Below, in pieces: positions 4,885 through 63,879 of a DNA stretch of 64,000 nucleotides. The position numbers were made by a program, and so were the translations under genes. Under the pieces are notes generated by a model, which was given only the letters and a program-made list of their open reading frames with translations, was not told where the DNA came from and did not search any database. The stretch is from Terebella lapidaria. Its lineage: Eukaryota; Annelida; Polychaeta; Terebellida; Terebellidae. The DNA is taken from contig OX424567.1 in NCBI GenBank assembly GCA_949152475.1, positions 16,703,402-16,767,401 on the forward strand, given 5' to 3'. The number at the start of each line of letters is the position of its first letter. The first letter of the stretch is position 1.

Positions 4885-5165
4885 TGTTAGTGCTAGATTC
4901 CGTCTGTACTTTACTGAACAACAGAAATGTTTTCTTTTTGCACTCGTTCAGTACACCTGTACGAAAGCATTGCAACTATACATCTTAGGATTTCTTCTTT
5001 TGATTGTTTTGCTGTTTATGCGTTTCACAAGGTCCTCAATATATTATATAACTACATCAAATTATATAAAGTCCGCATAAAATCTCGAACAATCTAAACA
5101 GATTTAAAGAGAATTGCTATTTTATTTACAATATAAGTCTGTCAAACTTGTTCCAAAACTCGCTC
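4885..5165 (-). repeat. Diverged second copy of the LTR-like sequence
   Basis: The segment resembles about 3625-3920 in the same orientation. Shared blocks include TTTACTGAACAACAGAAA, TGTTTTCTTTTTGCACTC and GCATAAAATCTCGAA, with the order kept and several indels. The spacing of about 1.26 kb and loose similarity suggest an older solo LTR fragment of the same family rather than a recent duplication. Confidence 0.5.
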
Positions 5166-16840: not shown

Positions 16841-16983
16841 ACACGAGAGAATGGGGCCGCCTGCAGGTCCCGGTCATAAGCCGCCTGGACACAGAAAAAG
16901 ACTTGGACTACCAAAAAAATCGAGTATATTCGTACTCGTCATAACGCTCCTTACGACTTTCACAGATTTCGGACATGCTCAAG
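16841..16983 (+). CDS. Exon 1: start codon and signal peptide (ATG 16851)
   Basis: After acceptor TTTCACAG the exon carries ten untranslated bases, then ATG. The 44 codons encode a Pro/Gly and basic n-region ([17 protein letters not shown]...), a hydrophobic core [12 protein letters not shown] and a plausible cleavage site after GHA, before Gln. The last base is the G of the first helical glycine, and the donor is GTGAAT. No longer in-frame start exists because the acceptor lies just upstream. The long basic n-region could instead make this a signal anchor, but the Ala-Gln site favours cleavage. The collagen helix starts one residue later, so there is no propeptide. Confidence 0.85.
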
Positions 16984-19900
16984 GTGAATTTAAATGTCCA
17001 AAGGTTTTGCAGATATGATTTGGCTGCGTCATGACCAGAAATGGTCATGAAACGGACGATATCATAACGCTGTCATAACGATACTGTCATAACGATATTG
17101 AAGTCCCTTGAATGTTGTTCAGTTTCCAACAGTACTACTAATTGATTATAAACCCTACATTAGTGATTTAATACTAGAGAACTCACACAACTACATGATG
17201 TTCACTCACCATGTTGCTGTTTTTTGTACGTTCAACTGAATATATAGGACCAGCTGGAGAAATGGGACCACCTGGTCCACCTGGAGCGACAGGACCGACT
17301 GGGGCAGATGGACAACCGGGGCGCGAGGGTCCCATTGGACCCCCCGGCGTCTTGGGACCTATCGGTGATGGGGGTCCTACTGGAGCCACTGGCGCAACAG
17401 GTGAGAGAGTCAACATTGTAACACTGTAACAATAATTCAGTGTTCAGTGAGTGATAAACTAAAAGTAATTCCTGCTAAAGGATGATAGATATAACATAAA
17501 CCATTCCTAACAAAATACATTACAATACCAAATAATTTCAGGACGTTCTGGGCCATCTGGACCTCCCGGACCGCCGGGTGATGAGATAACTCAGGGCGAG
17601 CCAGGAAACCCCGGTCGCCCTGGTCCACCAGGCCCACCTGGTCGCACGGGTCCCCCAGGCAGCCAGCCCGGCCCTCCAGGCTCCATCGGCCCGAGAGGAA
17701 CCACGGGCGACAGAGGCGACCCTGGTCCGCCTGGAGAGTCAGGCCCACGGGGACCCACTGGCCAACCCGGACAATCAGGCTCACCCGGACCCACTGGAGA
17801 ACGAGGACCACGTGGATCTGATGGACAACCTGGTACCGACGGAGTCAGTGGACCCCGAGGCCCCACAGGTCCAACCGGACCTACAGGACCCACCGGACCT
17901 ACAGGTCCTTACTTTTGTTCATTAAAACTGAACGAACTTTCTCATTGCCCTCAAATAGCCTTCAAACCATTTCATTTAACATTTATTAAGCGCTCCTTTA
18001 TAGAACGTAGTGCTAAGCAAGGGCGCTGTACACTTTACCCCAGTCTAGAATTTAATACTACACAGCTGCCACAGTCCGGCGCTACACTATAACATCCTAT
18101 TGAATGACCGGTACCATTCAATCCTGGGTAGAGATAGACAATTAATGGTACACACCTTGCCTAAGGATGTTAGCGAAATAACTCGGTGGTCCAGCCTGAG
18201 TCTCGAACCCTAGACCTTTGCGTTACGAGACCAGCGCCTTATCCACTGTGCTACCCACTCCACGGGTAATTCCTGTCTGTTAACTGTAGTTTCGACATTA
18301 TATCATCGTTTCCAGGCGATAGAGGCTCGCGTGGCCCCGATGGACCTTCTGGAACTACGGGTCCTCGAGGCGAAACTGGCGAGACTGGACCATCAGGCGA
18401 CAGGGGTTCTCGAGGTCCCACCGGCCCAAGTGGCCCAACTGGCCCCAGCGGCCCCTCGGGCGATCGGGGACGACCGGGACCCACAGGACCTCCAGGCTCC
18501 CAACCAGGCGAACCAGGACCCCCAGGCGAGGCTGGACCTTCGGGCCCAACAGGTCCTCCCGGCCAGTCAGGCGGTCCTGGGGAGAGGGGACCCAGGGGGC
18601 CGTCTGGACCTGCCGGACCGAGTGGACCATCTGGGCCGACTGGACCAAGCGGTTAGTAAAAAATACAAGTGCTTCTTCGGCGATATCTTTGCTGAACATA
18701 GCCAGCTTCAATAATGTAAATACAGCTGAATTGACACAGTGATCAAATTCGTTGAGATGGACTCCCAGCTCAGAGATTATGAGAAATATTGGATTTAATA
18801 GTCTGTGTAATTATAAACCTGATGTAGGTTCGTAGTTTCACGAATATATGTTAACGCTTTCTCGACCAAAGCACAGATGGTGTTCGAGTCGCTCGTCTCA
18901 TCTTAGCGTTCCTTGCATGTACTTCCAGGTCCAGGTGGACAGACAGGACCACGTGGAGACCCAGGTCCTTCAGGGCCTACAGGACCTACGGGTCCGACCG
19001 GACCCAGTGGACTCCCTGGAGCACCAGGCCCCAGTCCTGATGGACCCCCGGGACCTCCTGGACGCCCAGGACCGACCGGACCCGCAGGGTCTCCTGGTAA
19101 CAGGGGCCAGGCTGGGTCTCCTGGCCCTAGGGGTGTAGGCGGCGAGCGTGGCCCTGTAGGACCGAGTGGACCTACAGGACCTGCTGGACCTTCGGGATCT
19201 CCCGGACAGACCGGAGAACGAGGAGGCAGAGGAGGTGTAGGAGCCACGGGAGCTACTGGACCTGCCGGTGGGTGGATATTATTGCAAAGACAGATAGATC
19301 GTGCTTCATTTTGAAAACAGTTTAACTTTCAAAGAGTATGGGAGCCCATGGGTGATATGTGTGGGGAAAATGGTGTTTTTTATTATTAAAACTTATCACG
19401 TTCGCACGTAGAAAGATTTTAGGCTTCCAAGTTCACATGTAGAAAGTCCAAAGCTACCACGTTCACACTTGGGAACATTATATGCTTTCACGTTTGCACG
19501 TGGAAACCTTAAAACCTATCACGTACGAACGTAAAAAGATGTAGGTTTCCACGTTCACACGTAGAAAGTTTCAAAGCTGCCACGTTCACATGTGGAAGCA
19601 TTTATACCCTTTCACGTTCGCACGTAGAAAGATTTAGGCTTCCATGTTCACACGTCACGTGGAAGCATTTGAGGCTACCACACCCGAATCTTTGCACATG
19701 CGAACGTGGTAGCTCCTGAAATTTCCACGTGCGTACGTGGAAGCGTTAAATGCTTCCAAATGTGAACGTGGTAGTCTCGGACTTTCTAAGTGCGAACATG
19801 GCAGCTTTGAATGCTTCCACGTGTGAATGTAATAGTAATTGACACTTGCACGAGTGAACGCAGTAGCCCTAACTGTTCCCACGTGCGAACGTGATAGTGT

Positions 19901-22900
19901 GTTGAATGTTCCACGTTCGAACGTGATAGCCTATTGCTAGAAAAAAACACAACATAGATTTTTTTTCGCGCATGTCACCTATGGGCTTCCGTAAAAGAGT
20001 AACCACTGGAGTAAACGTAAAAATGTTGTGAAAATGAATACTGTTAGTCGAAAATTGACTGAGCCTATTATATTTCGAAATAGATAACTACTGTAACTTT
20101 CATCTCCGCCAATATAGTATTTTAAAGCTTTAATTCATAATTGTCAGGTACCCTGTATACTAACACAATACTCTTATGGAAAATTTATTATTTATACTCA
20201 TATGTACTCCCTAGGACCCACTGGTGGACCTGGAACGACGGGAGAAGTCGGTCCTCCAGGTGATTCAGGACCTCGAGGTCCATCTGGTCCAAGTGGTCAA
20301 CCAGGCTCCCCTGGAGGCCGGGGCCCAACCGGACCGATAGGACCAGCTGGACCCTCAGGCGAGTCCGGAACTCGCGGTGAGCCTGGACCCCCGGGAGGCT
20401 TTGGTAGCACGGGAGCTACCGGTCAGCAAGGCGCTACTGGACAAGCAGGCCCTTCGGGACCGACCGGACCCACAGGCCCCACAGGACCTCTTGGCCCGGT
20501 CGGCGAGAGAGGCGAGCGGGGACCGAGAGGCGGTCCTGGGGGCCTAGGAGGCACTGGACCTGCCGGACCTAGAGGACCTCGAGGACCCGCCGGACCTTCT
20601 GGACCTCTCGGTATGCAATAATTCATGGTTACGTTAACTGACAAGCCAGGCATGTATTTAATGACAGTAATCAAACAGACATTTGACGTTTCTGAGGACA
20701 TTCTTTAAGCAATATATTATTCATGTCATGAAGCTTCATCGCTATATTGCTTATACTCGCAGGACCTATCGGACCACGAGGCAGCACAGGACAATCTGGA
20801 CCCCCTGGTGGACCTGGGCTAACGGGACCAGACGGACCAACTGGCCCAGCAGGCCCATCCGGCCAGCCTGGCCCTCAAGGACCTACTGGACCCCGAGGAA
20901 GCCAGTCTGGTCCCCCAGGACCAACCGGTCCTCCCGGAGAATCAGGACCTAGAGGGCCTGCCGGACCATCAGGTCCCAGTGGACCACCAGGTCAGTAGCG
21001 TGACCGTGAAAATCACACATGATGCATCATGCATGATTGTACTGAATTGTAGTATGGTGAGCAATGAGCACTTTGCTTTTTCGGTTCTCTTTTATGTTCA
21101 CATAAGAGGAACCAAGACATTCAAATTGTGTTGGAGATTTTCCACGATCATCATTCACACCACGGCACCTAATACCAATCAATAACTTCGTAATACATGT
21201 AGACGAACTGTAACAGTAATGTTATGTATACAATACAGGTGAAACTGGACCGAGAGGCCCAGCCGGACCTAGTGGTCCCTCGGGTGGACCTGGTACTCCG
21301 GGAGAACCAGGGTTACGTGGGCCTGATGGGCCCACTGGACCCGCCGGACCGAGTGGCGAAGGTGGATCTCAGGGCCCTAGAGGTCCTACCGGTCCATCAG
21401 GACCAGACGGCCCAGCCGGCCCCTCGGGACAGTCGGGACAGGACGGAGACACTGGACCTCCAGGACCAAGAGGCAACCGCGGACCAGCCGGGCCTAGTGG
21501 TCCAACTGGACCGACAGGTGGCAGAGGCGGCCCAGGTCAAGCTGGACCTAGGGGACCAGCGGGACCATCCGGACCAACCGGCCCAAGCGGACCGACTGGA
21601 TCACCAGGAAGACCGGGAGAGAGAGGAGAGAGAGGTCCCACTGGTCCACCTGGATCCGAACCAGGACCACCGGGCCCAACAGGTGAAATACGGAATTGTC
21701 CCAGATATACCCTGAAGCTGTGAAATATTTTTGAATAGGTATCAGATTCAAACATTACATTGCAATCGCTATGTGCATACTTGTGATATCCTAATTTTCT
21801 AAACATTTTTTGCAATCGTTTTGCCTGCAGGACCTACTGGACCGACCGGACCCAGTGGTGAGCGAGGTCCTTCTGGAACTCCGGGACCGGCAGGTCCTAC
21901 AGGCGGCCCGGGTCCACGAGGTCCTTCTGGACCGTCTGGACCCGCAGGAACCTCCGGACCACCGGGTACTCAAGGCGAACTAGGACAAACAGGGCCTGCT
22001 GGACCGGCTGGAGAACCAGGCGAGCCAGGACCTACAGGACCTTCCGGTCCCACTGGACCATTGGGACCCTCGGGCGAGCGAGGACCTCGAGGTCCCAGTG
22101 GAGGCCCTGGAGTTACCGGGCCAATTGGACCAGTAGGACCTGCTGGACCTAGCGGCCCGGCCGGAGAACCAGGCGAGAGAGGAACACCCGGAGGACAAGG
22201 CGAGTTCTACAAAGAAAAAGAGAATGTTTTTTTTTGTTGAAAATTTCTCCAGCTCGAGAAATAAATAAATACTCATAATTACACCACACACTAGTCTCAC
22301 TAAGAAATTAAGCGTTAAGCCTTAGCATTTTCGTGTTGCAGGACAAACTGGACCACTCGGCCCAGTCGGCCCTGCCGGCCCATCAGGCTCGCCAGGCCCT
22401 ACAGGGGAAACTGGAGGACCCGGCCCACGGGGTCCAGCCGGACCCCAGGGCGAACGGGGCCCTGATGGACCCGCTGGTGGACCTGGACCTACTGGACCAC
22501 TGGGACCTGCAGGACCTGCCGGACCCGCTGGTGAACAGGGCGAGCGAGGTTCACAAGGAACAGCAGGTCCGTGTTCTTGACAGACATCGATATCACATCT
22601 ATTAGGATTTCTAGTGGGATTGCAAGGAGTACAAAACGTGCCTTGAGTAATTTGTGATGATATATGGTTGCCGAGCTAGAGTATATTTTCCCATTACCCA
22701 TCTCGTTTCCACCAGGACAACCTGGACAGCCCGGAGCACCTGGACCCGATGGACCCCAAGGCGAGAGAGGGCAGCAAGGTTCACCAGGACCAACCGGGTC
22801 TAGAGGCCCTGACGGCGAACAAGGCAGACAAGGACCCAGAGGTAAGTGAGTGGTGGAGTGAGGAATAGACAGTGATCTAGAAATAAGGGTGTAGGGTGTG

Positions 22901-55900: not shown

Positions 55901-58900
55901 GAGGCTGGAGCGACTGGAACCGACGGACTATCTGGCGAGCGTGGACCTAGAGGACCTGCTGGTCCAGCTGGCCCTGCTGGTGAGACCGGCGGGCCTGGCG
56001 AGCCTGGACAGCCCGGAGCACTGGGACCGAGGGGCACTGCAGGGCCACAGGGGGAACGAGGTGAACCAGGCCCACAGGGCGGTCCAGGACCTGACGGACC
56101 CCTGGGACCAGTTGGTCGACCAGGGCCGCGTGGAGAACGAGGAGAACAGGGCACAAGAGGCGAGACCGGCGCCACAGGAACTGTTGGCACACCAGGTAAA
56201 ATTATCCTAATTACAATAAGTAGAATTGTAATTTTAATGGGAATACCGAACCTACATGTACCGGTATCAAAAAAAAGCCCATTTAGATTATGGATTGAAA
56301 GAGTGAATGATGTTGGGTTGTATTGCATTATCTGCTTCCATGAATATTGATTATCACGTTTATTTAGTAACAAAAGAATATCCACATGCTTTGACATCTT
56401 AGTTTGAAAGATAATTTGAGAAAACAACTTGGAGTTCCATATGTATACCGGTATAATATACAATTGTTCTGGCTAGGAACACGAGGTAACCGAGGTCGTC
56501 AGGGCCCGCAAGGTGAGCGCGGTCAGCCTGGAGGTCCAGGAGCTACTGGCACGGACGGACTACCAGGACTGCGAGGGCCTCAGGGTCCACGTGGCACCCC
56601 AGGTGACCGAGGCGATCCGGGTGAGACTGGCGCCACTGGACCTACTGGACCAACTGGACGACAGGGTGAGCGAGGTCCGCGAGGCGAGCCAGGTGAGACT
56701 GGAGAGCAAGGAGGACCAGGACAGCTAGGCAGCCCCGGCCGCCAGGGACCCAGAGGACCCCAGGGAGAACGTGGTTCGGGTGGTGATATCGGCAGGCCTG
56801 GCGAGACAGGTCGCATTGGACCAGTGGGACCTGCTGGACCAGCTGGTGCTCCTGGTGAAACTGGGGAACCTGGTACGACTGGAGCTACCGGAGGGGCTGG
56901 ACCGAGAGGACCTTCCGGGCCCCAAGGCGAGAGGGGAGAGCCTGGTATCCAGGGATCTCAGGGCCCAGCTGGACGGGATGGTGCCCCGGGAACGCGTGGT
57001 GCTAGAGGTCCGAGAGGCGAGACTGGCGAACCTGGAATCGGAGGCGAGACAGGCGCAACTGGACCACAGGGTGTGTGTTGCTCCAACAAAGCAGTCAAAA
57101 CAATGTAAACGTCAACATTATTTTTTAAAGCTCGGAATAATAATTTAATACAATAAATGTCATTACTGGTATACCGAAACATGCCTTTGGTGTTAAGAGA
57201 GAACCTTGTTGCAACAGTATGCCATTCGATTATCATCATGTACAGGATCCCAGGGACCGAGAGGTGCCCCAGGTCCGACTGGTGAGCTGGGTATTGGCGG
57301 CGACACGGGTGCTACCGGTGCTACAGGCCCACAGGGACCACTTGGCCCCATCGGCGAAAGAGGCCTACGAGGCGAGACGGGTGCTACTGGAGAACAGGGC
57401 CCTCTTGGACCCATTGGGCGTACAGGCGAACGTGGAACCCGAGGGGAGACTGGACCGCCAGGCGAGGAAGGAATCATGGGCCGCCCCGGCGAGCAGGGTG
57501 CCACTGGGCCAAGAGGAGGGCAAGGAGAAAGAGGAGAGCCTGGAATCTCTGGAGGCTCTGGACGAGCAGGAGAACGTGGACAGCCTGGACCTGCTGGCGC
57601 GAGAGGTCAGTATGTCAGATGGAATATTCAACCATGTTACTATTATTTTCGAGAACTGTTTAAAAGCGTTTCCTTATTTAGATTTGTTGCATAATCACTT
57701 ATTTGATTATTTTAAAATACGAATCAATAATAATCCTATTGGTGGATTTGCCGTGCTTCCTTATTATTTTTAACACATGAATCAAGCGTAGGTAATATAA
57801 TGGGTGGATTTGTGGTGTTTTGCTATATACACATACCTTGTCCTCATCGGGTATATATTTGATGATAAATACGCTTTAACGCAGGTGCTCCCGGAGATCA
57901 AGGTGAGCCTGGTATTCTTGGACCGGCCGGTCAGCCAGGCAGACAAGGACTACGTGGACCCACAGGCGAACAAGGCCCCCGTGGCATTCCAGGCGAGACC
58001 GGAGCAACAGGAACGATTGGATCCATGGGACCTCGTGGTACTCAGGGTGAGCGCGGTCAACCAGGCGAGACGGGCGATCCCGGCGAGACAGGCGCCACAG
58101 GACCTGCCGGCAGGACTGGACCTCGTGGTCCCACGGGACAGCGAGGACAGCCCGGAGACGCTGGCGGGGCTGGGACAACTGGAGCCACTGGAGCCACCGG
58201 CAGACAGGGACCAGCAGGCGAGCGCGGACAGCGTGGTGAGCCAGGCGAACAAGGAAATCAGGGACAACCCGGCGAGACTGGACGACCTGGAACTGCTGGC
58301 GCTAGAGGTCAGACTTGTCTTTGAAATTTATAATATAATGAAAAAAACTTTGAGGATTATAAGTAATATGCTCGGCACTCCGTATTATATCACTGCGTAG
58401 TATACAACATACAGGTACTTATGGCAACTTTATCCAGTACTAAATAATTGATACTGATCTGAAAACATATAAATTGACATGAGTAGTTATACGAAGACTC
58501 ACATCTGGAAATCAATATGTTCTTCCATGTGCATTTCAAAGTAATTTATCTGTTTGTTGACAGGCGAGCGTGGCCAGCGAGGCGAGACAGGTCCCGCGGG
58601 AGTGGAAGGCCCTGCAGGACTTCAAGGTCTTCGAGGTCCTCGCGGTGCAGCAGGTCCGCAGGGCGAACGGGGTGGTCCTGGCACCACGGGTGCTACGGGT
58701 ACCATCGGCCGCCAAGGACCGACAGGCCAGCGCGGAGCTCCAGGCGAACGTGGTGAGCCAGGAGAAGTTGGAGGCCCGGGCTCTGATGGTCTGCCTGGTC
58801 TCAGAGGACCCACCGGGCAACAAGGAGAGCGAGGTATGTGTGTGTGTGTGTGGGGTGGGGGAGGGGTGGGGTGTGTATATATGTTGTTTAGCTTAATGAC

Positions 58901-61900
58901 TTAATGACTTTTAGCTTTGAGATCGCATCTAACTATAATATTCAACTGTATTTGTGTGTGTTATTCGGTTTATCGTATTGACAATTATGTCCCCCGGAGG
59001 GGCACATATAGTTGTGAAGTAGCTCCCGTCAGACGTCAGGCGTGTGGCGTGAACCACCGAGCTTGTACACCTTTTCGGGATATTTTAATGAAACTTGACT
59101 TGCAGGTACATGTATAATATTGTAATATGATGATTGGTATTGATTTCGCCAAAATCTGATACACAATATGGCCGCCATTGCAAAGTTTCTGGCAGAATTC
59201 GGCCATGTAACTTGTTATGCAGGTACATATAGGATATGGTAATATGAAGATTGGCATTGAAATAGCAAAATCTAAAAACATATGTGGTCACCATTGAAAA
59301 TTTTGTGCCGAACTCGGCCATGTAGTCTGTACACCTATTAAAAAGGAGAGTCTTCAAGATACCTACACGAAACTTGATATGCATGTTTACATGTACGTGT
59401 TATATGACGATTGGTGACGATTTTCCCTGAAATTCCTAAAACTAGATGTCCACAATCTCACGTTTCGCCCTGAACCCGGGAGACGCTTAAATTACACTCT
59501 CTAAAGTACATAGTTCTCGGGATATCTTCTGTCACTGATGCTGAGCCAATGCCTAAATACCCTTTCATAACATCAACTTTATTCTATACCAAAAATACCT
59601 GCAGTCATTGATATTTATCCTCCGGGGGATATCCTTTGCGGTCGCATGCAACCGAATATACCCAATCATAAATTGATCTCTAATTGAATACATACATTTA
59701 CTACACCAGGTGAACCTGGACCCATTGGTATTGAGGGTGAAGCTGGTCTCTCTGGCCCTCGAGGGCGCCCAGGCGCCGCTGGTCCGAGAGGCTCAGCTGG
59801 TGAGGCAGGACTCCCTGGTCAAGTGGGCGCACCAGGATCACTCGGTCGCGCTGGCGAGAGAGGCGAGCGTGGACCTCCTGGCGAAATCGGCTCGCCTGGT
59901 GAGATTGGCTCGCAGGGACCTCGTGGTCAACCTGGCCGCCAGGGCCCCCAGGGAGAGCGTGGACAATCTGGCATAGAAGGCGAAGCAGGGCAGACTGGCG
60001 CTACTGGTCTCCAAGGTCCGAGAGGACCAGCTGGACCACTTGGCGAACGTGGTGAACCAGGCATTGAAGGGCCTACTGGGCGAATGGGACCCACTGGACC
60101 ACGCGGTGAACGCGGAGAACGCGGACCCATTGGAATTGGAGGTGAAACTGGCGCGACTGGATTAGTTGGACTTCCAGGCTCTGCTGGCGCTACAGGCGAA
60201 CGTGGCGATCGAGGATCCCAAGGAGACACTGGTGCAACCGGTTCTATTGGCCGTCCTGGGACGAGAGGACCTCGAGGTCCCGCTGGCGAACCAGGTGACC
60301 GAGGAGAGACTGGCGCTACTGGGACTCCAGGACGTGACGGGGAGCAGGGATTGAGAGGCCCGAGAGGGGAGCGTGGACCGGCTGGATCGATAGGAGAGTC
60401 TGGTGAACCAGGACCCACAGGACTCCGTGGTCCACGTGGGCGCACCGGCGAACAGGGAACCAGGGGTGCCCCGGGCGAGCAGGGTAAGGAAATAGTATCT
60501 TATACAGACCGTTCAGTGTTTGACTGTTATTCAATATGCACTGAAACACTAAAAATAGAATGGCAAGAAACTGCCTTCATACATTTTGAAAACAAAAATG
60601 TATTCAGTATTCTATTACATTGCATAATATCTTGCAACAATGGAATTGACTAAACTGCAAGATAAAATAACAATACATTTACATGTACCATCGTCAAACA
60701 GGTGAGCTCGGAACGGAAGGACGACCTGGCGAACAAGGACTGCGCGGTACTCAAGGACAGAGAGGCGCCCCGGGTATTGTTGGCGAACCTGGTGAACTCG
60801 GAGCCCCCGGACTGCCGGGCCTTAGAGGTCCCACTGGCGAGCGAGGTCGGTTCTGCATATGGTTGCTGCTTTATTACCAATTATCGTGAAAACCACTAGA
60901 AAGCGCCCACATGATATGATATGTAGGCCTAATGGCTTCCAAAATACAAATTTGTCATTCTGTTATTGTTCATGAATTTGAAGTTGATATCAAGCTTTTA
61001 ATATTCAGTGCACATTGTGGCATTTCGAAACTATATGATTATCCAATATTTACTCATGTCTTAAGGCCCTGCTGGCGGTATTGGAGACGTGGGTGAGACG
61101 GGTGCTACTGGCCAGATCGGCAGAACTGGACCTGCTGGACCCGCCGGCGAACGCGGTGGCCGAGGAGAGACCGGGGCAATTGGTGCCATCGGCAGCGTCG
61201 GTCGCCAAGGACCCCGCGGCCCTGCAGGCGAGCCAGGAGAGAGGGGAGAGCCAGGCAGACTGGGTGAGGTTGGCAGGATCGGAGAACAGGGACGACAGGG
61301 TGAAAGAGGACCCACTGGAGGCCCCGGTGATACGGGAGCTACGGGCGGTATTGGACAGCCCGGAAATAGAGGTCAGTACGACAGTGTCTTGTGCATGTTT
61401 GACAATACAACATGACAGTCAGTGCTAGTACCGAATAAATATCAATATCATATATGGTAGTATGTCGATATGAATTCTAATAATTTTTCTACAAAATGAT
61501 TGCCATCAGCTCATCTCGTTTGTCAAATATATCCGATGACCCAGTATTTAAATACCACTAGCATACATGTATACCGCTGACAATATTAATATTTTCCCTA
61601 GGACCACGAGGCCCGCGTGGACCCGCTGGTGAGCCTGGCGACTTGGGCGTTACTGGGGGAACTGGAGCCACTGGCAGACCTGGAGGTCCAGGACCTCGAG
61701 GGCCTGCAGGAGAGACTGGGCTGCGAGGGGACACAGGAGCCACAGGCGGATTTGGACCGAGAGGAACTGCGGGTTAGTGATTACGAAGTCATTGATATGA
61801 AAGAAAATAATTATTAATTTATCATCAACACGATCACGATGAGATTATGACGATGATGATTAAATAAAGAAGCCTAAACATCAAATTCCACGAGTACATG

Positions 61901-63879
61901 GTTGAAAAGATATAGTATGCAAATTTCACGAACTGAATAATGACCTGACATCTATTGCAAGTTTGGCACATACATGGGCAGTGTCATTCAGTGCGCCCAA
62001 GTGTAATTACATAGTAATATCTAGAAGGAAAACCCTTCAAAACATCCCTCCTGTGTGTTTCGGATACACCGATTTGGAAAGAGTTAATAGTTATAATCAT
62101 TTGGGCGTTGTGTTCACTAGTAACATGAGCTGGCATGAGCATATCAAATGCAAAATCGAAAAAACATCGAATGTAACAAATTTGCTACTAAGATCGACAC
62201 CCTTCCTACCTAGGCGTAGTAAGGAGCACATTTATGTGTCATTTATCCGCCCCATCCTTGAATATGGATGTCTATTGTACGACAATTCCCCTACATATCT
62301 GTTGAACCAGTTGGAAAAATGTCAACGTAATCTCGCCATAATCTGCACCGGAGCCTACCGACATACCAACCATGAATTATTGTTGTCGGAATTAGGCTGG
62401 TCAAAGCTAACTACTCGCAGGCAATACTACAAACTTACGTTGATGTACAAACTTGTGCACTCAAAGGCACCACTTTATTTATGTAATCTGTTGCATGAGC
62501 AGCCCCAACAACATGCGCATCTACTTCGCAACGACAACAATATACGGGCCCCATTCTGCAAAACTGAATCATATAAACGATCTTTCTTACCATCAGGTAT
62601 TCGGACTTGGAATGACCTTGAAAATAACGTTCGACATTCACAAACCATCTACAGTTTCAAGAGATCACTCAAATCGAATCTGTTCCCGAACAAAAATGTT
62701 TTGTTTACACTTGGTTACGGCTATGGTCAAACAAATCATGCAAGAATGAGAGCACAGATGCAATTACAATTTTATTAGTGACTCCATATGTACAAATTGC
62801 CCAAACCCTAGAGAAGATAATTTACATTTCTTCCTCGTATGCCCTGTATATCGTGATCATCGTACAGAAATGCTTACAGAAATTGCAACAAAATTTCCTG
62901 ATATCAATGTGTATTCCAAATCCAATGATAAAAAACAAGAACTTTTGAAAATATTATTGTATGGTAGCAACCATCTGTGCATCAACGACAATATTGACAT
63001 TTTTAGAGCTGTGTTCGTTTACATATTGAAAACTAATAGATTTCGTGAAACGAACAAAGATTAGAAATCCCATCGATGTTTGTATCTAGTTTTACCTTGC
63101 CATTGTATATTATTATTCACTATGTAAATATGTTTATGACAGATTTGTTTGTAAATATAAAACCACCCTGCCAACAGTTATGTTCTTATGTTGAGGAGAA
63201 TACCTAGTGCCAAGAAATTGGCGTGTACCATCCTCGTTAAATAAATATTGTATATAAAAAAAAAATCACGCTCTTAGATTAATATTACATGAATAATAAT
63301 ACATGCATAATATGAGGATGTGTTACTGACTGTTTGCAGGACCGACTGGCGAGCGCGGTGAGCCTGGCGGTCCAGGAGGAATTGGACCAATTGGACGAGC
63401 AGGACCCACTGGACCGCGAGGTGAACAGGGCGAACAAGGCGAGCGTGGTGAACAGGGACCCATTGGACCCCAAGGTCGCCGTGGACCTCAAGGTCCCCAA
63501 GGCATTCGAGGCGATCGAGGTGAACCCGGTACGGTGGGCGAGCTTGGACCGCAAGGCCGCCGTGGTAACCAAGGACCGCGAGGCCCCACAGGCGAACAAG
63601 GCAATAGAGGCACGACTGGAGCAACTGGTGACGCAGGAATACGAGGTCGAACTGGTCCTCGAGGTCAGCCCGGTCCGAGCGGCAGATCAGGACCTACGGG
63701 TGCGACTGGAGGACAGGGACCAATCGGACAGCCTGGAGAGAGAGGTCGACCTGGACCGCTTGGTGAAGCAGGCGAGACTGGCGAGCCGGGACCAATCGGA
63801 CCTGCCGGACGTCCCGGACCATCTGGACCTGCTGGAGAGCGTGGGAACACTGGAGAGACTGGTGCTACTGGTAGTCCTG
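16851..63879 (+). CDS. Giant cuticle-type collagen gene, 62 coding exons in window, 3' end outside
   Basis: The spliced product is a secreted, near-continuous triple-helix chain. A 44-residue signal-peptide exon is followed by about 7,438 Gly-X-Y residues (about 2,480 triplets, about 2.1 micrometres of rod), with no stop and no noncollagenous domain before the window ends. Exon sums keep frame exactly (22,447 coding bases). The frame shows no Lys, Cys, Trp, Tyr or His that I can find and only two Phe. Composition shifts from Pro/Ser/Thr-rich (exons 2-14) to GER/GEQ/GEP-rich (15-50) to GATG/GETG-rich (51-62). Twelve imperfections were seen. Micrometre length, Ser/Thr in Y positions and lack of lysine fit annelid cuticle collagens, secreted by epidermis into the body-surface matrix; that family call is inference (about 50 percent). 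Fibrillar collagen is excluded by length, exon phase and the missing N-propeptide. A trimerisation or C-terminal domain must lie downstream. Confidence 0.9.
17248..17400 (+). CDS. Collagen exon 2
   Basis: Seventeen perfect triplets ([10 protein letters not shown] to GATGAT). Both ends split a Gly codon (phase 1). It joins exon 1 as CAA-G|GA, which fixes the start of the helix. It contains one of the very few Met. Donor GTGAGA. Confidence 0.92.
17542..17904 (+). CDS. Collagen exon 3, two imperfections
   Basis: 121 residues. One triplet has Ile in place of Gly (GDE-ITQ-GEP), and one GSQPG adds an extra residue, so the exon is 40 triplets plus 3 bases. It carries an RGD (GDRGDPG). The donor GTCCTT is weak, but phase and the next exon require it. 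Confidence 0.85.
17905..18315 (+). other. Intron 3, containing a tRNA-derived SINE
   Basis: A 411-base intron occupied mostly by a minus-strand SINE, listed separately. The acceptor is GTTTCCAG. Confidence 0.85.
17945..18265 (-). mobile_element. tRNA-derived SINE
   Basis: On the minus strand a tRNA-like head has a perfect RNA polymerase III A box (TAGCACAGTGG, about 18246-18256) and a B box (GGTTCGAGACT, about 18199-18209). Between them is a loop reading CTCGTAA, like a tRNA-Thr(CGT) anticodon loop with a degraded stem. A body of about 230 bases follows, ending near an ATAAATGTTAA-like tail. The head is not a working tRNA because the stems do not close. Confidence 0.7.
18316..18651 (+). CDS. 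Collagen exon 4, GSQPG imperfection
   Basis: 112 residues, 37 triplets plus one extra residue in GSQPGEPG. Rich in GPSG and GPTG with a few GDR triplets. Phase 1 at both ends; donor GTTAGT. Confidence 0.92.
18929..19267 (+). CDS. Collagen exon 5, GPSPDG imperfection
   Basis: 113 residues. Two extra residues in [12 protein letters not shown] account for 37 triplets plus 6 bases. It contains RGD in GPRGDPG. Long [13 protein letters not shown] run. Donor GTGGGT. Confidence 0.92.
19268..20214 (+). other. Intron 5, with a palindromic minisatellite
   Basis: A 947-base intron. About 540 bases are a 30-bp tandem array (19390-19930, listed separately). The rest is AT-rich with no other features. Acceptor ACTCCCTAG. 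Confidence 0.9.
19390..19930. repeat. 30-bp palindromic minisatellite, about 17-18 units, two opposed halves
   Basis: CACGTTCGCACGT-type cores recur near 19398, 19428, 19458, 19488, 19519, 19549, 19581, 19612 and 19643. Reverse-type cores (CACGTGCGAACGTGGTAG and variants) recur near 19698, 19724, 19757, 19788, 19818, 19848, 19879 and 19911. The period is about 30. Each unit is itself nearly palindromic (TTCCACGTTCACACGTGGAA), and the array changes orientation near 19660-19690. Confidence 0.8.
20215..20610 (+). CDS. Collagen exon 6
   Basis: 44 perfect triplets with a [13 protein letters not shown] core. It holds one of only two Phe seen in the helix (GGF). Phase 1 at both ends, donor GTATGC. 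Confidence 0.93.
20763..20990 (+). CDS. Collagen exon 7, GSQSG imperfection
   Basis: 76 residues, 25 triplets plus one extra residue in GSQSGPPG, the same kind of break as in exons 3, 4 and 8. Donor GTCAGT. Confidence 0.93.
21239..21682 (+). CDS. Collagen exon 8, GSEPG imperfection
   Basis: 148 residues, 49 triplets plus one extra residue in GSEPGPPG near the 3' end. Rich in GPAGPSG. Donor GTGAAA. Confidence 0.92.
21831..22199 (+). CDS. Collagen exon 9, GC donor
   Basis: 41 perfect triplets ending GGQ. The phase and multiple-of-9 length place the donor at CAAG|GCGAGT, a GC-AG intron; no GT in the required phase is present. Same length as exon 16. Confidence 0.87.
22342..22566 (+). CDS. Collagen exon 10
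   Basis: 25 perfect triplets ([10 protein letters not shown] to GTA). Donor GTCCGT. It follows a 369-bp exon, as exon 17 does, giving the repeated 369/225 size pair. Confidence 0.92.
22716..22841 (+). CDS. Collagen exon 11
   Basis: 14 perfect triplets, among the shortest helical exons. Starts [10 protein letters not shown], ends GPR. Consensus donor GTAAGT. Confidence 0.94.
22969..23193 (+). CDS. Collagen exon 12
   Basis: 25 perfect triplets, starting [10 protein letters not shown] and ending GPQ. The acceptor TTTACCAG is followed by GG, so the first codon is GGG. Donor GTAATT. Confidence 0.92.
23194..24428 (+). other. Intron 12, no recognised content
   Basis: A 1,235-base AT-rich intron. 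I see no repeat array, RNA gene or coding exon in it. Confidence 0.8.
24429..24743 (+). CDS. Collagen exon 13
   Basis: 35 perfect triplets ([10 protein letters not shown] to GET). The first exon with frequent GER/GEQ triplets, marking the shift from Ser/Thr-rich to charged helix. Donor GTGCGT; its position is set from reading frame, plus or minus one base. Confidence 0.9.
24915..25067 (+). CDS. Collagen exon 14
   Basis: 17 perfect triplets ([10 protein letters not shown] to GEQ). The acceptor ACCAAAAG lacks a good pyrimidine tract, the weakest in the gene, but frame and length fit exactly. Donor GTGAGG. Possibly an alternatively used exon. Confidence 0.82.
25068..27040 (+). other. Intron 14, with a long tandem array
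   Basis: A 1,973-base intron dominated by a 115-127 bp tandem repeat, listed separately. The remaining 500 bases before the acceptor TTCACTATAG hold nothing recognised. Confidence 0.88.
25440..26520. repeat. Satellite-like array, about nine units of 115-127 bp
   Basis: The core TTGAATATCCCTACAAAT recurs near 25490, 25603, 25720, 25845, 25970, 26099, 26225, 26350 and 26450, with conserved CAACTCAGATATTGAGATGT and TTAATCCCTACGTTC blocks between. Units diverge by substitutions and short indels and decay toward both ends. Confidence 0.85.
27041..27253 (+). CDS. Collagen exon 15, GVPERG imperfection
   Basis: 71 residues, 23 triplets plus two extra residues in [12 protein letters not shown]. Starts [10 protein letters not shown]. 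Donor GTACGG. Confidence 0.92.
27444..27812 (+). CDS. Collagen exon 16
   Basis: 41 perfect triplets ([10 protein letters not shown] to GTD), the same length as exon 9. Donor GTAAGC. Confidence 0.93.
28101..28325 (+). CDS. Collagen exon 17
   Basis: 25 perfect triplets ([10 protein letters not shown] to GTP). Completes the second 369/225 size pair. Donor GTACAT. Confidence 0.93.
28431..28651 (+). CDS. Collagen exon 18, GESVPG imperfection, phase-0 end
   Basis: 74 residues, 24 triplets plus two extra residues in GESVPGPAG. It ends on a complete CAG codon, so the following intron is phase 0, one of only two in the gene. Donor GTAGAT. Confidence 0.88.
28873..29224 (+). CDS. Collagen exon 19, phase-0 start
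   Basis: Starts with a whole glycine codon GGT after acceptor TTCGGCCAG, then 39 perfect triplets to a split Gly. GER, GEP and GEQ dominate. Donor GTACGT. Confidence 0.88.
29322..29672 (+). CDS. Collagen exon 20
   Basis: 39 perfect triplets ([10 protein letters not shown] to GPQ). Strong acceptor TCCTTTGTAG, donor GTCAGT. Confidence 0.94.
29951..30175 (+). CDS. Collagen exon 21
   Basis: 25 perfect triplets ([10 protein letters not shown] to GQP), including a [13 protein letters not shown] run. Donor GTTTGA is weak, but phase and length fit. Confidence 0.92.
30427..30777 (+). CDS. Collagen exon 22
   Basis: 39 perfect triplets ([10 protein letters not shown] to GSA). Part of the 351/225/351/225 size alternation of exons 20-23. 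Donor GTTGGT. Confidence 0.93.
31053..31277 (+). CDS. Collagen exon 23
   Basis: 25 perfect triplets ([10 protein letters not shown] to GQP). Donor GTATGT. Confidence 0.94.
31514..31754 (+). CDS. Collagen exon 24, AER imperfection, phase-2 end
   Basis: 27 triplets, the last of which (AER) lacks Gly. The Arg codon is split AG|A across the intron (phase 2). Donor GTCAGT. The loss of Gly lies exactly at the exon edge. Confidence 0.87.
31755..32832 (+). other. Intron 24, with dispersed repeat copies
   Basis: A 1,078-base intron. Bases 31836-32110 match the 168-bp repeat family of intron 48, and 32688-32735 match a segment at 50309-50365. The rest is AT-rich and unrecognised. Confidence 0.75.
31836..32110 (+). 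repeat. Dispersed repeat related to the intron 48 family
   Basis: It begins AAGTTCGGCGGATACTATGG, as does the copy near 47553. It keeps the order of the 168-bp unit there (TGTGAATGCTC..., ATATACTATGGTAAG, TTGCCATAACA, AACAGCC), but at much lower similarity. Probably a non-autonomous transposon copy. Confidence 0.6.
32833..33446 (+). CDS. Collagen exon 25 (614 bp), GC donor
   Basis: Begins with the A that completes Arg, then 68 perfect triplets, mostly GER, GEP, GRP and GPA. The donor is CAG|GCAAGA, a consensus GC-AG site required by phase, since the next exon opens with GT GAG. Confidence 0.88.
33624..33884 (+). CDS. Collagen exon 26
   Basis: 29 perfect triplets ([10 protein letters not shown] to GET), ending in a [13 protein letters not shown] block. 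Donor GTTAGT. Confidence 0.93.
34036..34323 (+). CDS. Collagen exon 27
   Basis: 32 perfect triplets ([10 protein letters not shown] to GPT). Donor GTCAGT. Confidence 0.93.
34589..35029 (+). CDS. Collagen exon 28
   Basis: 49 perfect triplets ([10 protein letters not shown] to GPA). First of the 441/513 exon pairs. Acceptor CTCTTCAG, donor GTCAGA. Confidence 0.93.
35132..35644 (+). CDS. Collagen exon 29, GC donor
   Basis: 57 perfect triplets ([10 protein letters not shown] to GEA). The donor must be CTG|GCAAGA, the third GC-AG intron; the next exon opens GC TCG, which completes Gly. Confidence 0.88.
35753..36193 (+). CDS. Collagen exon 30
   Basis: 49 perfect triplets ([10 protein letters not shown] to GAA). 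Second 441-bp exon. Donor GTGAAA. Confidence 0.93.
36338..36850 (+). CDS. Collagen exon 31
   Basis: 57 perfect triplets ([10 protein letters not shown] to GPI), with [10 protein letters not shown] near the start, a sequence like the GAOGER integrin site if Pro is hydroxylated. Donor GTATGT. Confidence 0.94.
   Translation, partial: DVRDHLEHQASVVSVALMADQESLGHEDKRAQPALLDLVDKQVHQDLQAVMARPDSEDLQDHVVSVVNEAKEDQLGTQDSRDQMVPKARLVRQDHVVKLEHLARLAFVVLMGLEAILVRQGPKENLANVVVLAMLADLAQMAGLDLRELQVNLVNVAVVGKLEKLVQEVL
37010..37408 (+). CDS. Collagen exon 32, GTIRG imperfection
   Basis: 133 residues, 44 triplets plus one extra residue in [11 protein letters not shown]. It opens with the unusual [13 protein letters not shown]. 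Donor GTAAAA. Confidence 0.93.
37651..38163 (+). CDS. Collagen exon 33
   Basis: 57 perfect triplets ([10 protein letters not shown] to GSQ), third 513-bp exon. Donor GTAAAT. Confidence 0.94.
38274..38714 (+). CDS. Collagen exon 34
   Basis: 49 perfect triplets ([10 protein letters not shown] to GSQ), third 441-bp exon. It contains [10 protein letters not shown]. Donor GTATCA. Confidence 0.93.
38847..39197 (+). CDS. Collagen exon 35
   Basis: 39 perfect triplets ([10 protein letters not shown] to GRD). Donor GTCAGT. Confidence 0.94.
39430..39690 (+). CDS. Collagen exon 36
   Basis: 29 perfect triplets ([10 protein letters not shown] to GEP). Same length as exon 26. Donor GTAATA. Confidence 0.93.
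39901..40080 (+). CDS. Collagen exon 37
   Basis: 20 perfect triplets ([10 protein letters not shown] to GPT). Acid-rich start. Donor GTAAGA. Confidence 0.93.
40241..40519 (+). CDS. Collagen exon 38
   Basis: 31 perfect triplets ([10 protein letters not shown] to GTD). Acceptor CATTTTAAG, donor GTATGT. Confidence 0.93.
40640..41062 (+). CDS. Collagen exon 39
   Basis: 47 perfect triplets ([10 protein letters not shown] to GES). It starts with the Arg-rich run [10 protein letters not shown]. First exon of a 423/270 size pair that recurs at exons 56/57. Donor GTACGT. Confidence 0.94.
41063..41448 (+). other. Intron 39, with nested small duplications
   Basis: A 386-base intron. It holds an adjacent duplication of about 37 bp (AATTAAATAAAGTAA...TTCGTGCATATCA, 41104-41171), a doubled AGTTTCACCTCCTT (41250-41278), and a pair of GGACGTCATT...ACTTTGCCTATC segments (41340-41443), the second of which runs into the acceptor. 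Confidence 0.8.
41449..41718 (+). CDS. Collagen exon 40
   Basis: 30 perfect triplets ([10 protein letters not shown] to GPQ). Its acceptor TTGGACAG lies in a locally duplicated sequence. Donor GTGAAC. Confidence 0.92.
41949..42287 (+). CDS. Collagen exon 41, GIG imperfection
   Basis: 113 residues: 38 triplets with one residue missing in GAPGIGTPG, the only deletion-type break seen. Donor GTAAGT. Confidence 0.92.
42512..42669 (+). CDS. Collagen exon 42, phase-0 end
   Basis: 53 residues ending GGA TCG, so the intron lies between X and Y residues of a triplet (G-S | R). Donor GTGGGC. The junction is confirmed by exon 43 starting with CGT GGA. Confidence 0.87.
42670..42997 (+). other. Intron 42, no recognised content
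   Basis: A 328-base AT-rich intron, acceptor TTGTTCGTAG. Confidence 0.8.
42998..43154 (+). CDS. Collagen exon 43
   Basis: Starts with the Y-position Arg of the previous triplet, then 17 perfect triplets to GPT. Donor GTCAGT. Confidence 0.88.
43155..43751 (+). other. Intron 43, no recognised content
   Basis: A 597-base AT-rich intron, acceptor CCGTTGTAG. Confidence 0.8.
43752..43895 (+). CDS. Collagen exon 44
   Basis: 16 perfect triplets ([10 protein letters not shown] to GPI). Donor GTACGC. Confidence 0.93.
44096..44264 (+). CDS. Collagen exon 45, phase-2 end
   Basis: Starts [10 protein letters not shown] and ends in GEA, with Ala split GC|T (phase 2). Consensus donor GTAAGT. Confidence 0.9.
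44427..44545 (+). CDS. Collagen exon 46
   Basis: The shortest helical exon: it completes Ala, then 13 perfect triplets ([10 protein letters not shown] to GPQ). Acceptor GGTATCACAG, donor GTAGGC. Confidence 0.9.
44700..46472 (+). CDS. Collagen exon 47, giant exon of 1,773 bp
   Basis: 197 perfect triplets without one break ([10 protein letters not shown] to GRQ), a single uninterrupted 591-residue block in one exon. GER, GEP, GEQ and GPA dominate. The exon is about 33 times the usual 54-bp fibrillar collagen exon. Phase 1 at both ends; donor GTATGA. Intron loss or internal triplet expansion are the obvious explanations. Confidence 0.95.
46686..46890 (+). CDS. Collagen exon 48, SER imperfection, phase-2 end
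   Basis: Starts [10 protein letters not shown]. One triplet has Ser in place of Gly (GST-SER-GEA). It ends GER with Arg split AG|A. Donor GTGGGA. The glycine change could be a real kink or a variant. Confidence 0.88.
47553..47657 (+). repeat. Repeat terminus plus GTCCGC hexamer array
   Basis: A fold-back-like start (CCCGAACAAAGTTCGGCGG, about 47545-47563) is followed by about twelve GTCCGC units (47584-47657). Confidence 0.8.
47667..48060 (+). repeat. 168-bp tandem repeat, about 2.3 units
   Basis: CTTGTGAACGC recurs at 47667, 47835 and 48003, exactly 168 apart, with nearly identical sequence between. Because 168 is a multiple of 3, the repeat keeps a minus-strand frame open for 182 codons, which is an artefact. 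Confidence 0.9.
48230..49150. repeat. Tandem array of about 130-bp units, seven copies
   Basis: GAATAAGTTAACATT recurs near 48273, 48405, 48537, 48698, 48829, 48960 and 49093. Each is followed by AGTCTATTATTGACCACAAT and a CTCAACAAGGTAAAGG block. Confidence 0.88.
49150..50100. repeat. Second tandem array, about eight units of 120 bp
   Basis: TTTGAATTTCAACTTGAAAC and TCATCTTGAAATGCAGTTTT recur about every 120-121 bases from about 49170 to 50050. It directly abuts the unrelated 130-bp array. Confidence 0.88.
50309..50365 (+). repeat. Segment shared with intron 24
   Basis: GGGCAACAGAGATGATA and GGATACACCCAAGCGGT occur here and, in the same order and spacing class, at 32688-32735. Part of a wider dispersed repeat. 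Confidence 0.65.
50366..51142 (+). other. 3' part of intron 48
   Basis: Degenerate sequence with recurring TTTGACCTTGA-type phrases, probably decayed repeat. The acceptor TTTTTGCAG precedes exon 49. Confidence 0.5.
51143..51342 (+). CDS. Collagen exon 49
   Basis: Completes Arg with A, then 22 perfect triplets ([10 protein letters not shown] to GSI). Donor GTGAAT. Confidence 0.9.
51459..52511 (+). CDS. Collagen exon 50, giant exon of 1,053 bp, GC donor
   Basis: 117 perfect triplets ([10 protein letters not shown] to GQP) without a break. Phase places the donor at CCAG|GCATGT, the fourth GC-AG intron. No in-phase GT is available. Confidence 0.88.
52512..53985 (+). other. Intron 50 (1.47 kb), with duplicated blocks
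   Basis: Bases 52868-53008 and 53325-53454 are copies (GTCCCAAATC..., GAGCCATTTCCAGCAAA), as are about 53160-53330 and 53470-53630 (CCTTGAAAGGTCAAAACGA...). CGGCCATTTTGATTTTTTGA recurs. Likely decayed repeat. Acceptor TATGTTTTAG. Confidence 0.8.
53986..54588 (+). CDS. Collagen exon 51
   Basis: 67 perfect triplets ([10 protein letters not shown] to GTI). Start of the GATG/GETG-rich zone. Donor GTGAGA. Confidence 0.94.
54855..55313 (+). CDS. Collagen exon 52
   Basis: 51 perfect triplets ([10 protein letters not shown] to GTD). Donor GTTTGT. Confidence 0.93.
55476..56195 (+). CDS. Collagen exon 53 (720 bp)
   Basis: 80 perfect triplets ([10 protein letters not shown] to GTP). Acceptor TTGTTTGCAG, donor GTAAAA. 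Confidence 0.95.
56477..57070 (+). CDS. Collagen exon 54
   Basis: 66 perfect triplets ([10 protein letters not shown] to GPQ), with RGD in GDRGDPG. Donor GTGTGT. Confidence 0.94.
57246..57605 (+). CDS. Collagen exon 55
   Basis: 40 perfect triplets ([10 protein letters not shown] to GAR), with GATGATG and a Met (GIMG). Donor GTCAGT. Confidence 0.94.
57885..58307 (+). CDS. Collagen exon 56
   Basis: 47 perfect triplets ([10 protein letters not shown] to GAR). Same length as exon 39 and, like it, followed by a 270-bp exon. Donor GTCAGA. Confidence 0.94.
58564..58833 (+). CDS. Collagen exon 57
   Basis: 30 perfect triplets ([10 protein letters not shown] to GER). Donor GTATGT, which opens a GT microsatellite and G-rich tract (58838-58872). 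Confidence 0.93.
58834..59709 (+). other. Intron 57, with an inverted-repeat-bounded element
   Basis: An 876-base intron: GT/G-rich tract first, then the element at 58990-59629, then AT-rich sequence to the acceptor CTACACCAG. Confidence 0.85.
58990..59629. mobile_element. Non-autonomous element bounded by TCCCCCGGAGG inverted repeats
   Basis: TCCCCCGGAGG at 58990-59000 and CCTCCGGGGGA at 59619-59629 form an 11-base perfect inverted repeat. Inside, GAAACTTGACTTGCAGGTACA-like units of about 117 bp repeat two to three times. It has no coding capacity and is a likely DNA-transposon derivative. Confidence 0.6.
59710..60483 (+). CDS. Collagen exon 58 (774 bp)
   Basis: 86 perfect triplets ([10 protein letters not shown] to GEQ), Ile- and Thr-rich for this gene, with RGD in GERGDRG. 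Donor GTAAGG. Confidence 0.95.
60702..60845 (+). CDS. Collagen exon 59
   Basis: 16 perfect triplets ([10 protein letters not shown] to GER). The donor GTCGGT is weak, but phase fits. Confidence 0.9.
61066..61371 (+). CDS. Collagen exon 60
   Basis: 34 perfect triplets ([10 protein letters not shown] to GNR). Acceptor ATGTCTTAAG, donor GTCAGT. Confidence 0.93.
61602..61772 (+). CDS. Collagen exon 61
   Basis: 19 perfect triplets ([10 protein letters not shown] to GTA), with RGD in GLRGDTG and the second Phe of the helix (GGF). Donor GTTAGT. Confidence 0.93.
61773..63339 (+). other. Intron 61, hosting a LINE fragment
   Basis: A 1,567-base intron of which about 1,340 bases are a same-strand non-LTR retrotransposon relic. 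Acceptor CTGTTTGCAG. Confidence 0.9.
61928..63266 (+). mobile_element. 5'-truncated non-LTR retrotransposon (LINE), reverse transcriptase C-terminus
   Basis: The frame from about 61930 to 62778 reads [16 protein letters not shown], then [30 protein letters not shown] and [16 protein letters not shown], the thumb and post-catalytic region of a LINE reverse transcriptase (Jockey/CR1-like group). The catalytic palm is missing, as expected from 5' truncation. After an apparent one-base frameshift near 62755 the frame continues with [21 protein letters not shown], a C-terminal zinc-binding tail, to about 63064. A 200-base 3' UTR and an A run at 63257-63266 end the element. It is a dead copy on the same strand as the host gene. 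Confidence 0.85.
63340..63879 (+). CDS. Collagen exon 62, last in window
   Basis: 60 perfect triplets ([10 protein letters not shown] to GSP) with GATG motifs. It ends in a split Gly at donor GTATGT, so the gene continues past the window. Confidence 0.94.

Follow-up and report, generated by a model that had tools for sequence, protein, structure and literature searches.

Does the long series of collagenous reading frames at this locus belong to one gene, what kind of collagen would such a gene encode, and could the chain carry information on how its rods are packed? The window, i.e. the whole stretch of 64,000 bases that was analysed, was scanned in all six frames for Gly-X-Y runs of at least five triplets. 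On the plus strand there are 71 such runs with 7,557 residues; the 25 runs on the minus strand are all short (411 residues in total). As 24 of the latter lie fully within plus-strand exons and the remaining one overhangs an exon by 4 bases, they are interpreted as antisense shadows. The longest run has 198 triplets, whereas ten shuffled versions of the window (dinucleotide blocks) gave maxima of 3–5.

Splice-aware joining on the plus strand resulted in one predicted signal exon followed by 61 exons of collagenous sequence (CDS 16851–63879). We used a dynamic programme which combines phase-matched acceptors and donors, admits no stop and gives a bonus for the Gly register. Phase compatibility at all 61 junctions (AG acceptors) is therefore built into the procedure, and all exon ends are sequence-based predictions, picked so that no stop is read. 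The first model had eight GC donors and 7,381 post-leader residues. For refinement, five donors (four GC, one GT) were shifted to downstream in-phase GT donors, which lengthened the helix; 57 GT and four GC donors (exons 9, 25, 29 and 50) are now used. The refined model has 62 exons and 22,447 coding bases for 7,482 residues with zero in-frame stops. A leader of 44 residues is followed by a chain of 7,438 residues, a count which includes 12 interruptions. With 0.286 nm for each residue, the helix would be 2.13 µm long; the mass is 687 kDa before modification. The earlier note on this DNA had listed 61 collagenous exons, 7,438 residues and about 2.1 µm, and recomputation reproduced these values. 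The first model underlies the X and Y composition, the triplet enrichments, the self-matches, the scans of introns for open reading frames and signal exons, the test at lag 78, the whole-chain periods, the folding into zones and the rat collagen controls. The refined model underlies the wave power in the second half, the autocorrelation, the packing score, the junction phase test, the interruptions and the intron phases.

Introns are in phase 1 in 56 of 61 cases, each of these splitting a Gly codon; three are in phase 2 and two in phase 0. The median intron has 221 bases, and eight introns are longer than 700 bases. Read-through beyond every donor reaches a stop within 64 residues.

All exons are on the plus strand. 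The coding part of exon 1 (16851–16983) encodes a predicted signal peptide with a basic stretch, a hydrophobic core and the end ...TDFGHA-Q (cleavage site judged by eye); its 44 residues precede a Gly codon split by a phase-1 donor. The helix begins directly after the leader with exon 2 (17248–17400), and no non-collagenous or globular N-terminal domain was seen between the two. The initial 99 residues of the model match Pfam Collagen with an E-value of 5.1e-08. The N-terminal helix region, exons 2–12 (17248–23193), is rich in Pro in X and Thr or Ser in Y and contains six of the 12 interruptions; exon 2 is followed by exons at 17542–17904, 18316–18651, 18929–19267, 20215–20610, 20763–20990, 21239–21682, 21831–22199, 22342–22566, 22716–22841 and 22969–23193. 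Within exons 13–24 (24429–31754) Glu in X and Arg in Y increase and three interruptions occur (24429–24743, 24915–25067, 27041–27253, 27444–27812, 28101–28325, 28431–28651, 28873–29224, 29322–29672, 29951–30175, 30427–30777, 31053–31277, 31514–31754). Exons 25–34 (32833–38714) have one interruption (32833–33446, 33624–33884, 34036–34323, 34589–35029, 35132–35644, 35753–36193, 36338–36850, 37010–37408, 37651–38163, 38274–38714). Lengths of 441 and 513 bases appear repeatedly among them: they alternate in exons 28–31 and return as 513 and 441 bases in exons 33 and 34 (34589–38714), possibly a trace of an old exon-pair duplication.

A charge wave of 28 residues, described below, sets in within exons 35–46 (38847–44545), where one interruption is found, and is clear from about residue 4,000 (38847–39197, 39430–39690, 39901–40080, 40241–40519, 40640–41062, 41449–41718, 41949–42287, 42512–42669, 42998–43154, 43752–43895, 44096–44264, 44427–44545). 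Exon 47 (44700–46472), with 1,773 bases the longest, encodes 197 uninterrupted Gly-X-Y triplets. Exon 48 (46686–46890) carries the final interruption (GSTSER) and ends in phase 2 inside an Arg codon. Intron 48 (46891–51142) has 4,252 bases, being enlarged by tandem arrays, and its phase-2 donor and acceptor fit. The wave is strong in exons 49–62 (51143–63879), which are located at 51143–51342, 51459–52511, 53986–54588, 54855–55313, 55476–56195, 56477–57070, 57246–57605, 57885–58307, 58564–58833, 59710–60483, 60702–60845, 61066–61371, 61602–61772 and 63340–63879. Exon 62 terminates at the donor G|GTATGT (position 63879). Ending at a GT donor, the gene continues past the window end and its 3' end is open, in line with the earlier note.

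Lys, His, Tyr, Trp and Cys are completely absent from the 7,438 residues of the helix, and the whole helix has only two Phe and four Met. From the codon-position composition, 127 Lys, 273 His, 30 Tyr and 19 Cys codons would be expected. Per 1,000 residues there are 348 Gly, 186 Pro, 94 Arg, 88 Glu, 63 Ala, 61 Thr, 59 Gln, 44 Ser and 18 Asp. In the first model, the X position is occupied by Pro (35%) and Glu (25%), the Y position by Arg (21.8%), Pro (20.4%), Ala (13%), Thr (12.8%) and Gln (12%). Thr-rich Y positions, which the earlier note had associated with annelid cuticle collagens, are thus a local property here: Thr makes up 24% of Y in the first 250 triplets, 8–12% in the middle, and 18% and 20% in the two final segments, which comprise 442 triplets; over the whole chain Arg and Pro are ahead of it. 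Relative to a position-based expectation, the triplets GER (1.72-fold) and GPA (1.85-fold) are enriched; GPP is found at only 0.26-fold. GLSGER occurs once and RGD seven times; further motifs (18 protein letters, not shown) had zero occurrences in the joined chain of the first model.

Both hydroxylysine-based glycosylation and lysyl-oxidase cross-links require Lys. According to the model, neither would be possible inside this helix; the missing C terminus might carry Lys. A helix of 7,438 residues free of Lys raises the question of whether and how such fibres become cross-linked.

The 12 breaks in the Gly-X-Y repeat across the 61 helix exons are short. Four of them (at 17658, 18495, 20897 and 21652) have the form GP(P/R)GS(Q/E)(P/S) followed by Gly, and all four are within the first 800 residues. 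The common motif points to a hinge function or a common origin of these breaks.

Along the whole chain, net charge varies most strongly with a period of 28.13 residues; its power of 25.4 was reached by none of 200 block shuffles (first model). The signal comes from the region encoded by 38513–63879: for residues 3,600–7,482 the period is 27.9 residues with a power of 51.7, while the maximum of 500 first-order Markov chains was 13.4. Ten equal windows gave powers in the 26–31-residue band of 20.8–39.2 for the last four and 1.2–8.3 for the first six. Analysed as a whole, the first half shows no 28-residue peak (best period 8.2 residues, power 10.8). There are earlier traces, namely a net-charge period of 26.1 residues (power 6.4) near residues 1,460–2,170 and a 27.7–28.2-residue period of Pro in X already in windows from residues 2,761 and 3,211. 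The autocorrelation peaks at 10, 19, 28, 38, 47, 57, 66, 75, 85, 94, 102 and 111 triplets, and the fitted spacing is 9.35 triplets, equal to 28.05 residues or 8.02 nm. That the charge wave is real is practically beyond doubt.

Several properties share this period. The strongest peak falls at 28 residues for net charge and Pro in X (no shuffle of 200 as high), Glu in X, Arg in Y and the residues LIVMF (one shuffle each) and Pro in Y (three shuffles). It is elsewhere for absolute charge (10.6 residues, 27 of 200 shuffles as high), Thr in Y (18.1, 50), Ala/Ser/Thr in Y (40.3, 114) and Gln (40.3, 6). Folding on the local phase resolved successive zones of Pro-X/Arg-Y, Glu-X/Arg-Y, Glu-X/Pro-Y and Thr-Y with Ile, Leu and Val. 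In the second half, the unit of about 28 residues reads as Arg-rich GPR/GRQ, GER, acidic GEP/GET and Thr/Ala/Ile-rich GAT/GPI. Thr in Y ranges from 3% to 27% over the folded wave; its 28-residue peak for the whole chain is not significant.

As controls we used pieces of rat COL1A1 (237 triplets) and COL1A2 (225 triplets), taken from PDB-chain alignments. Unlike the second half of the window chain they lack a 28-residue wave (band power 0.9 and 2.0). Bacterial collagen-like stretches had a band power of at most 3.9 in the 15 of 35 loci with 60–183 triplets, short stretches which limit the power.

How might such a chain function? We regard as likely a joint explanation in which one gene encodes a secreted, giant and nearly unbroken chain of the annelid cuticle type, whose rods are packed by charge zones. 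Three chains would form a rod more than 2 µm long, stabilized by Glu-X/Arg-Y pairs and Pro, possibly with glycosylated Thr as reported for Riftia, rather than by frequent Gly-Pro-Hyp. Rods would pack sideways with positive against negative zones. Parallel rods would be offset by half a wavelength (14 residues, 4 nm); in antiparallel rods, charge and hydrophobic contacts could both be satisfied. Such packing would produce long fibres that lack both lysine cross-links within the helix and the 67-nm banding seen in type I collagen. The balance tips slightly in favour of the wave being an electrostatic packing code. If so, it would represent a quantitative sequence rule which predicts fibre packing. 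It is a tentative extension, for which we put the chances somewhat below even, that giant worm collagens carry an assembly code, a 28-residue charge wave which provides sideways contacts every 8 nm over about 1 µm, allows rods to be arranged antiparallel or offset by half a wavelength, and replaces lysine cross-links in a helix that has lost all its Lys and His; the wavelength is close in scale to the triple-helix pitch.

A contact score for residues from about 3,895 on, which leaves real trimer geometry aside, illustrates the options. For parallel rods the charge optimum is at staggers of 14, 41–43 and 70–73 residues and the hydrophobic optimum at 24–28, about 60 and 87 residues; the two scores conflict (correlation −0.75). 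In the antiparallel arrangement their correlation is moderately positive (+0.39, compared with −0.13 to 0.16 in 60 shuffles). By the best charge score, antiparallel packing is no better than parallel packing (43.4 versus 42.2). As it is missing from the first half as a whole, the wave cannot by itself organize the entire rod. PMC3933592 lists true repeats of 8.58 nm (10/3 helix) and 6 nm (7/2 helix) for the triple helix, together with repeats of 6.3, 7.7 and 9.85 nm in native collagens of types I and II. A spacing of 8.0 nm is within this range, so that successive copies of a zone could lie on roughly the same side of the rod.

Some features of the window lie outside the coding sequence. Five of the eight large introns (5, 14, 48, 50 and 57) contain tandem or direct repeats. 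Repeat types differ between introns 14, 48 and 50, three of the longest: tandem units of about 125 bases at 25470–26455, tandem units of 121–168 bases at 47667–50122, and diverged direct repeats of about 130–300 bases (72–87% identical) at 52721–53629, respectively. Intron 5 has arrays of 31- and 61-base units, partly inverted (19397–19896), and a smaller array is present in intron 57. Upstream of the gene, a direct repeat of about 260 bases with 71% identity is located at 3651–3905 and 4910–5151. In intron 61, two overlapping open reading frames (290 and 104 residues; 61906–63061, plus strand) resemble by eye the tail of a non-LTR reverse transcriptase (zf-RVT, E 0.079, below the cutoff), so that this intron likely contains a retroelement piece. 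Pfam was also run on four open reading frames upstream of the collagen gene. One of them, a retrotransposon gag-like frame of 471 residues, open, on the minus strand (1398–2813), has a SCAN-type domain (E 1.6e-12) and a CCHC zinc knuckle (2.7e-05); its aspartyl-protease match (0.078) is below the cutoff, and no relative was found for it in viral_contigs. Neither Rfam at gathering threshold nor ARAGORN (tRNA) gave a match in the window.

Other collagen families were considered. Fibrillar collagens have about 1,000 helix residues, contain Lys and share the triple-helix repeat and charged zones with the window chain. Their genes are built from exon units of 54 bases which contain complete Gly codons (phase 0). 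Only four of the 61 helix exons are divisible by 54, and phase 1 predominates as described above, so this pattern was rejected. A 234-residue D-period was not detected, there being no peak at a lag of 78 triplets for charge or hydrophobic residues (first model). Type IV collagens have about 1,400 helix residues, many interruptions and a C-terminal NC1 domain; the window chain matches such a basement-membrane collagen neither in helix length nor in how often the helix is interrupted. Nematode cuticle collagens, which have short Gly-X-Y blocks flanked by conserved Cys, were rejected on account of the lack of Cys. MACITs carry an uncleaved N-terminal transmembrane segment; here, the hydrophobic core is followed by a plausible cleavage site, as judged by eye. 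According to PMC4678570, no MACITs have been identified in either Annelida or Mollusca.

Biochemical work established long ago that the cuticle collagens of annelids are very long. The earlier note had contrasted the gene with sequenced fibrillar and basement-membrane chains of 1,000–1,500 helical residues, a contrast which is out of date. Published annelid collagens, predicted or assembled, have 8,859 residues in Alvinella pompejana, 8,689 in P. pandorae, 8,413 in P. grasslei and 7,719 in P. fijiensis, and Eisenia andrei also has a very long collagen (PMC12403961). No siboglinid prediction, Riftia included, attains such length according to the same source. Chains of comparable length in the surveyed literature are from annelids only (PMC12403961). 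The new gene most likely joins this published kind, the giant annelid collagens. In the literature searched there is little on annelid cuticle collagen genes and nothing on packing rules, and the window supplies an exon-level model for a large part of a giant annelid-type collagen gene.

Which alternatives compete with this explanation? A single gene across the span is very probable, and here the proposal of the earlier note held up: a scan for a second signal exon was negative, and the wave, which is independent of the joining, runs on over most junctions tested. The scan covered all introns for ATG open reading frames of at least 22 residues with a hydrophobic core (Kyte–Doolittle mean of at least 2.0 over 12 residues). 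Exon 1 passes it; 16 intron frames had such a core, none of them followed by a phase-1 G|GT(A/G) donor. The junction phase test, with a period fixed at 28.05 residues and up to 130 residues per side, covered the 28 junctions from exon 34 on, the first half being outside its range. At 24 of these the phase shift is below 0.25 cycle (mean shift 0.01 cycle), with a weak signal on one side in many of the 24. Among junctions with at least 56 residues and a power above 1.5 on both sides, 11 of 12 are in phase, and the mean cosine of 0.56 was matched by none of 5,000 permuted exon orders. Out of phase are junctions 35–36, 36–37, 50–51 and 52–53. Two or more tandem collagen genes, misjoined across large introns, could account for the eight introns above 700 bases, for the changes in composition along the span and for the shifts at intron 50 (1,474 bases, −0.28 cycle) and intron 61 (1,567 bases, 0.22 cycle), out of four large introns within reach of the phase test. 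However, around exons 50–53 the local period is about 29 residues, which moves the phase by itself, and the wave crosses introns 48 (4,252 bases) and 57 (876 bases) with shifts of 0.04 and 0.02 cycle. Across intron 48 the split Arg codon fits in phase 2, and the median intron is short. The eight large introns hold 83 stop-to-stop open reading frames of at least 50 residues, 34 of which were scanned with Pfam (all 33 on the plus strand and one of the 50 on the minus strand); none of the 34 had a match above the cutoff. Six sub-cutoff matches (zf-RVT 0.079, EGF_FBN_1st 0.044, FN3_Tor_3rd 0.018, Rhodanese 0.056, UPAR_LY6_2 0.014, Rhv 0.07) were put down to chance, or to a retroelement in the case of zf-RVT. 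Taken together, tandem genes are very improbable. An assembly artefact or a decaying pseudogene is more improbable still, to the point of being nearly negligible. PMC12403961 itself warns that repetitive collagens are prone to misassembly, and the stop-avoiding choice of exon ends could mask a few decayed ends. Yet 61 helix exons with 12 small interruptions contain no in-frame stop, and near-identical exon copies are absent. Self-matches between exons (E 1e-8) are 56–200 bases long and 66–86% identical; longer ones are outside exons, mostly in intron arrays. Third-position GC is 0.37, close to the intron GC of 0.36, in exons with an overall GC of 0.67, a mark of coding constraint which also counts against a pseudogene. 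The exon model bears on the misassembly concern which PMC12403961 raises for its own giant chains.

By the lengths and identities of the exon self-matches, the charge wave of this single gene is not due to a duplicated repeat. The wave might still be a mere relic of an ancient duplication of a 9–10-triplet unit, without any role in packing. We consider this rather unlikely. Triplet identity is also elevated at lags 9, 10, 18, 38 and 47, exon lengths of 441 and 513 bases are repeated, and Gly wobble bases agree at lag 28 with a frequency of 0.345, which is 1.9 SD over the mean. On the other hand, wobble identity is barely raised at lags 9 and 10 (0.339 and 0.328; mean 0.326, SD 0.010), the period of 9.35 triplets is not a whole number and yet its peaks recur out to 111 triplets, and the wave has no fixed phase at exon junctions (Rayleigh p about 0.1). 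The class of the collagen also allows for a second opinion. The chain could be a single giant collagen other than an annelid cuticle collagen, for example of a fibre, a tube, a tether or an internal matrix in another invertebrate, which reached its length by convergence. In favour of this, the Rfam, ARAGORN and viral_contigs searches yielded no taxonomic clue and Thr does not dominate in Y, but comparable lengths in the surveyed literature (7,719–8,859 residues) are confined to annelids and close to that of the window chain, and Pro in X fits the long annelid chains (PMC12403961). This makes a non-cuticle collagen improbable, and an annelid-type cuticle collagen is the probable assignment.

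As a probable annelid cuticle collagen, the window chain can be compared with the long alvinellid and earthworm chains. Those of Alvinella pompejana, Paralvinella and Eisenia andrei also consist of thousands of Gly-X-Y repeats (about 7,700–8,900 residues for the four alvinellids; PMC12403961), and the window chain has the near-continuous helix of this kind, with 12 short interruptions in 7,438 residues. Table 1 of that paper counts more repeats than a chain has triplets (5,698 for the 8,859 residues of A. pompejana), so only Pro fractions were compared, counted with the paper's own pattern. Pro in X is 0.353, inside the range of 0.331–0.403 of the five long annelid chains in that table; Pro in Y is 0.198, just under their range of 0.215–0.333. 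In this respect the chain is nearer to the earthworm (0.215) and to P. pandorae, a cold-adapted species (0.217), than to the chimney dwellers (0.326–0.333). Section 12 of PMC12403961 makes no mention of exon structure, lack of Lys and His or a charge wave for the long annelid chains. A search of the literature on annelid collagens, leaving out most subscription journals, found no charge wave reported; the helix free of Lys and His and the 28-residue wave are the parts without precedent in the literature searched.

The charge wave has a counterpart in a different protein architecture. The myosin rod has alternating positive and negative zones with a wavelength of 28 residues, which set the staggers in the filament. 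It is an alpha-helical coiled coil, in which 28 residues span about 4.2 nm, whereas the window chain is a collagen with 8.0 nm per wave; the likeness is thus an analogy of mechanism and not of descent. Among collagens, the cuticle collagen of Riftia shares with the window chain a very long helix, Thr in Y and, probably, the annelid cuticle type. Thr is reported to dominate the Y position in Riftia; in the window chain it accounts for 12.8% overall and at most 24% per 250-triplet segment. As the Thr-rich Y of Riftia cuticle collagen is species-specific (PMC11766948), it was not taken as defining for giant annelid cuticle collagens. The stability of the Riftia helix is tied to abundant glycosylated Thr (Mann 1996, cited in PMC11766948), while the Y position of the window chain is led by Arg and Pro.
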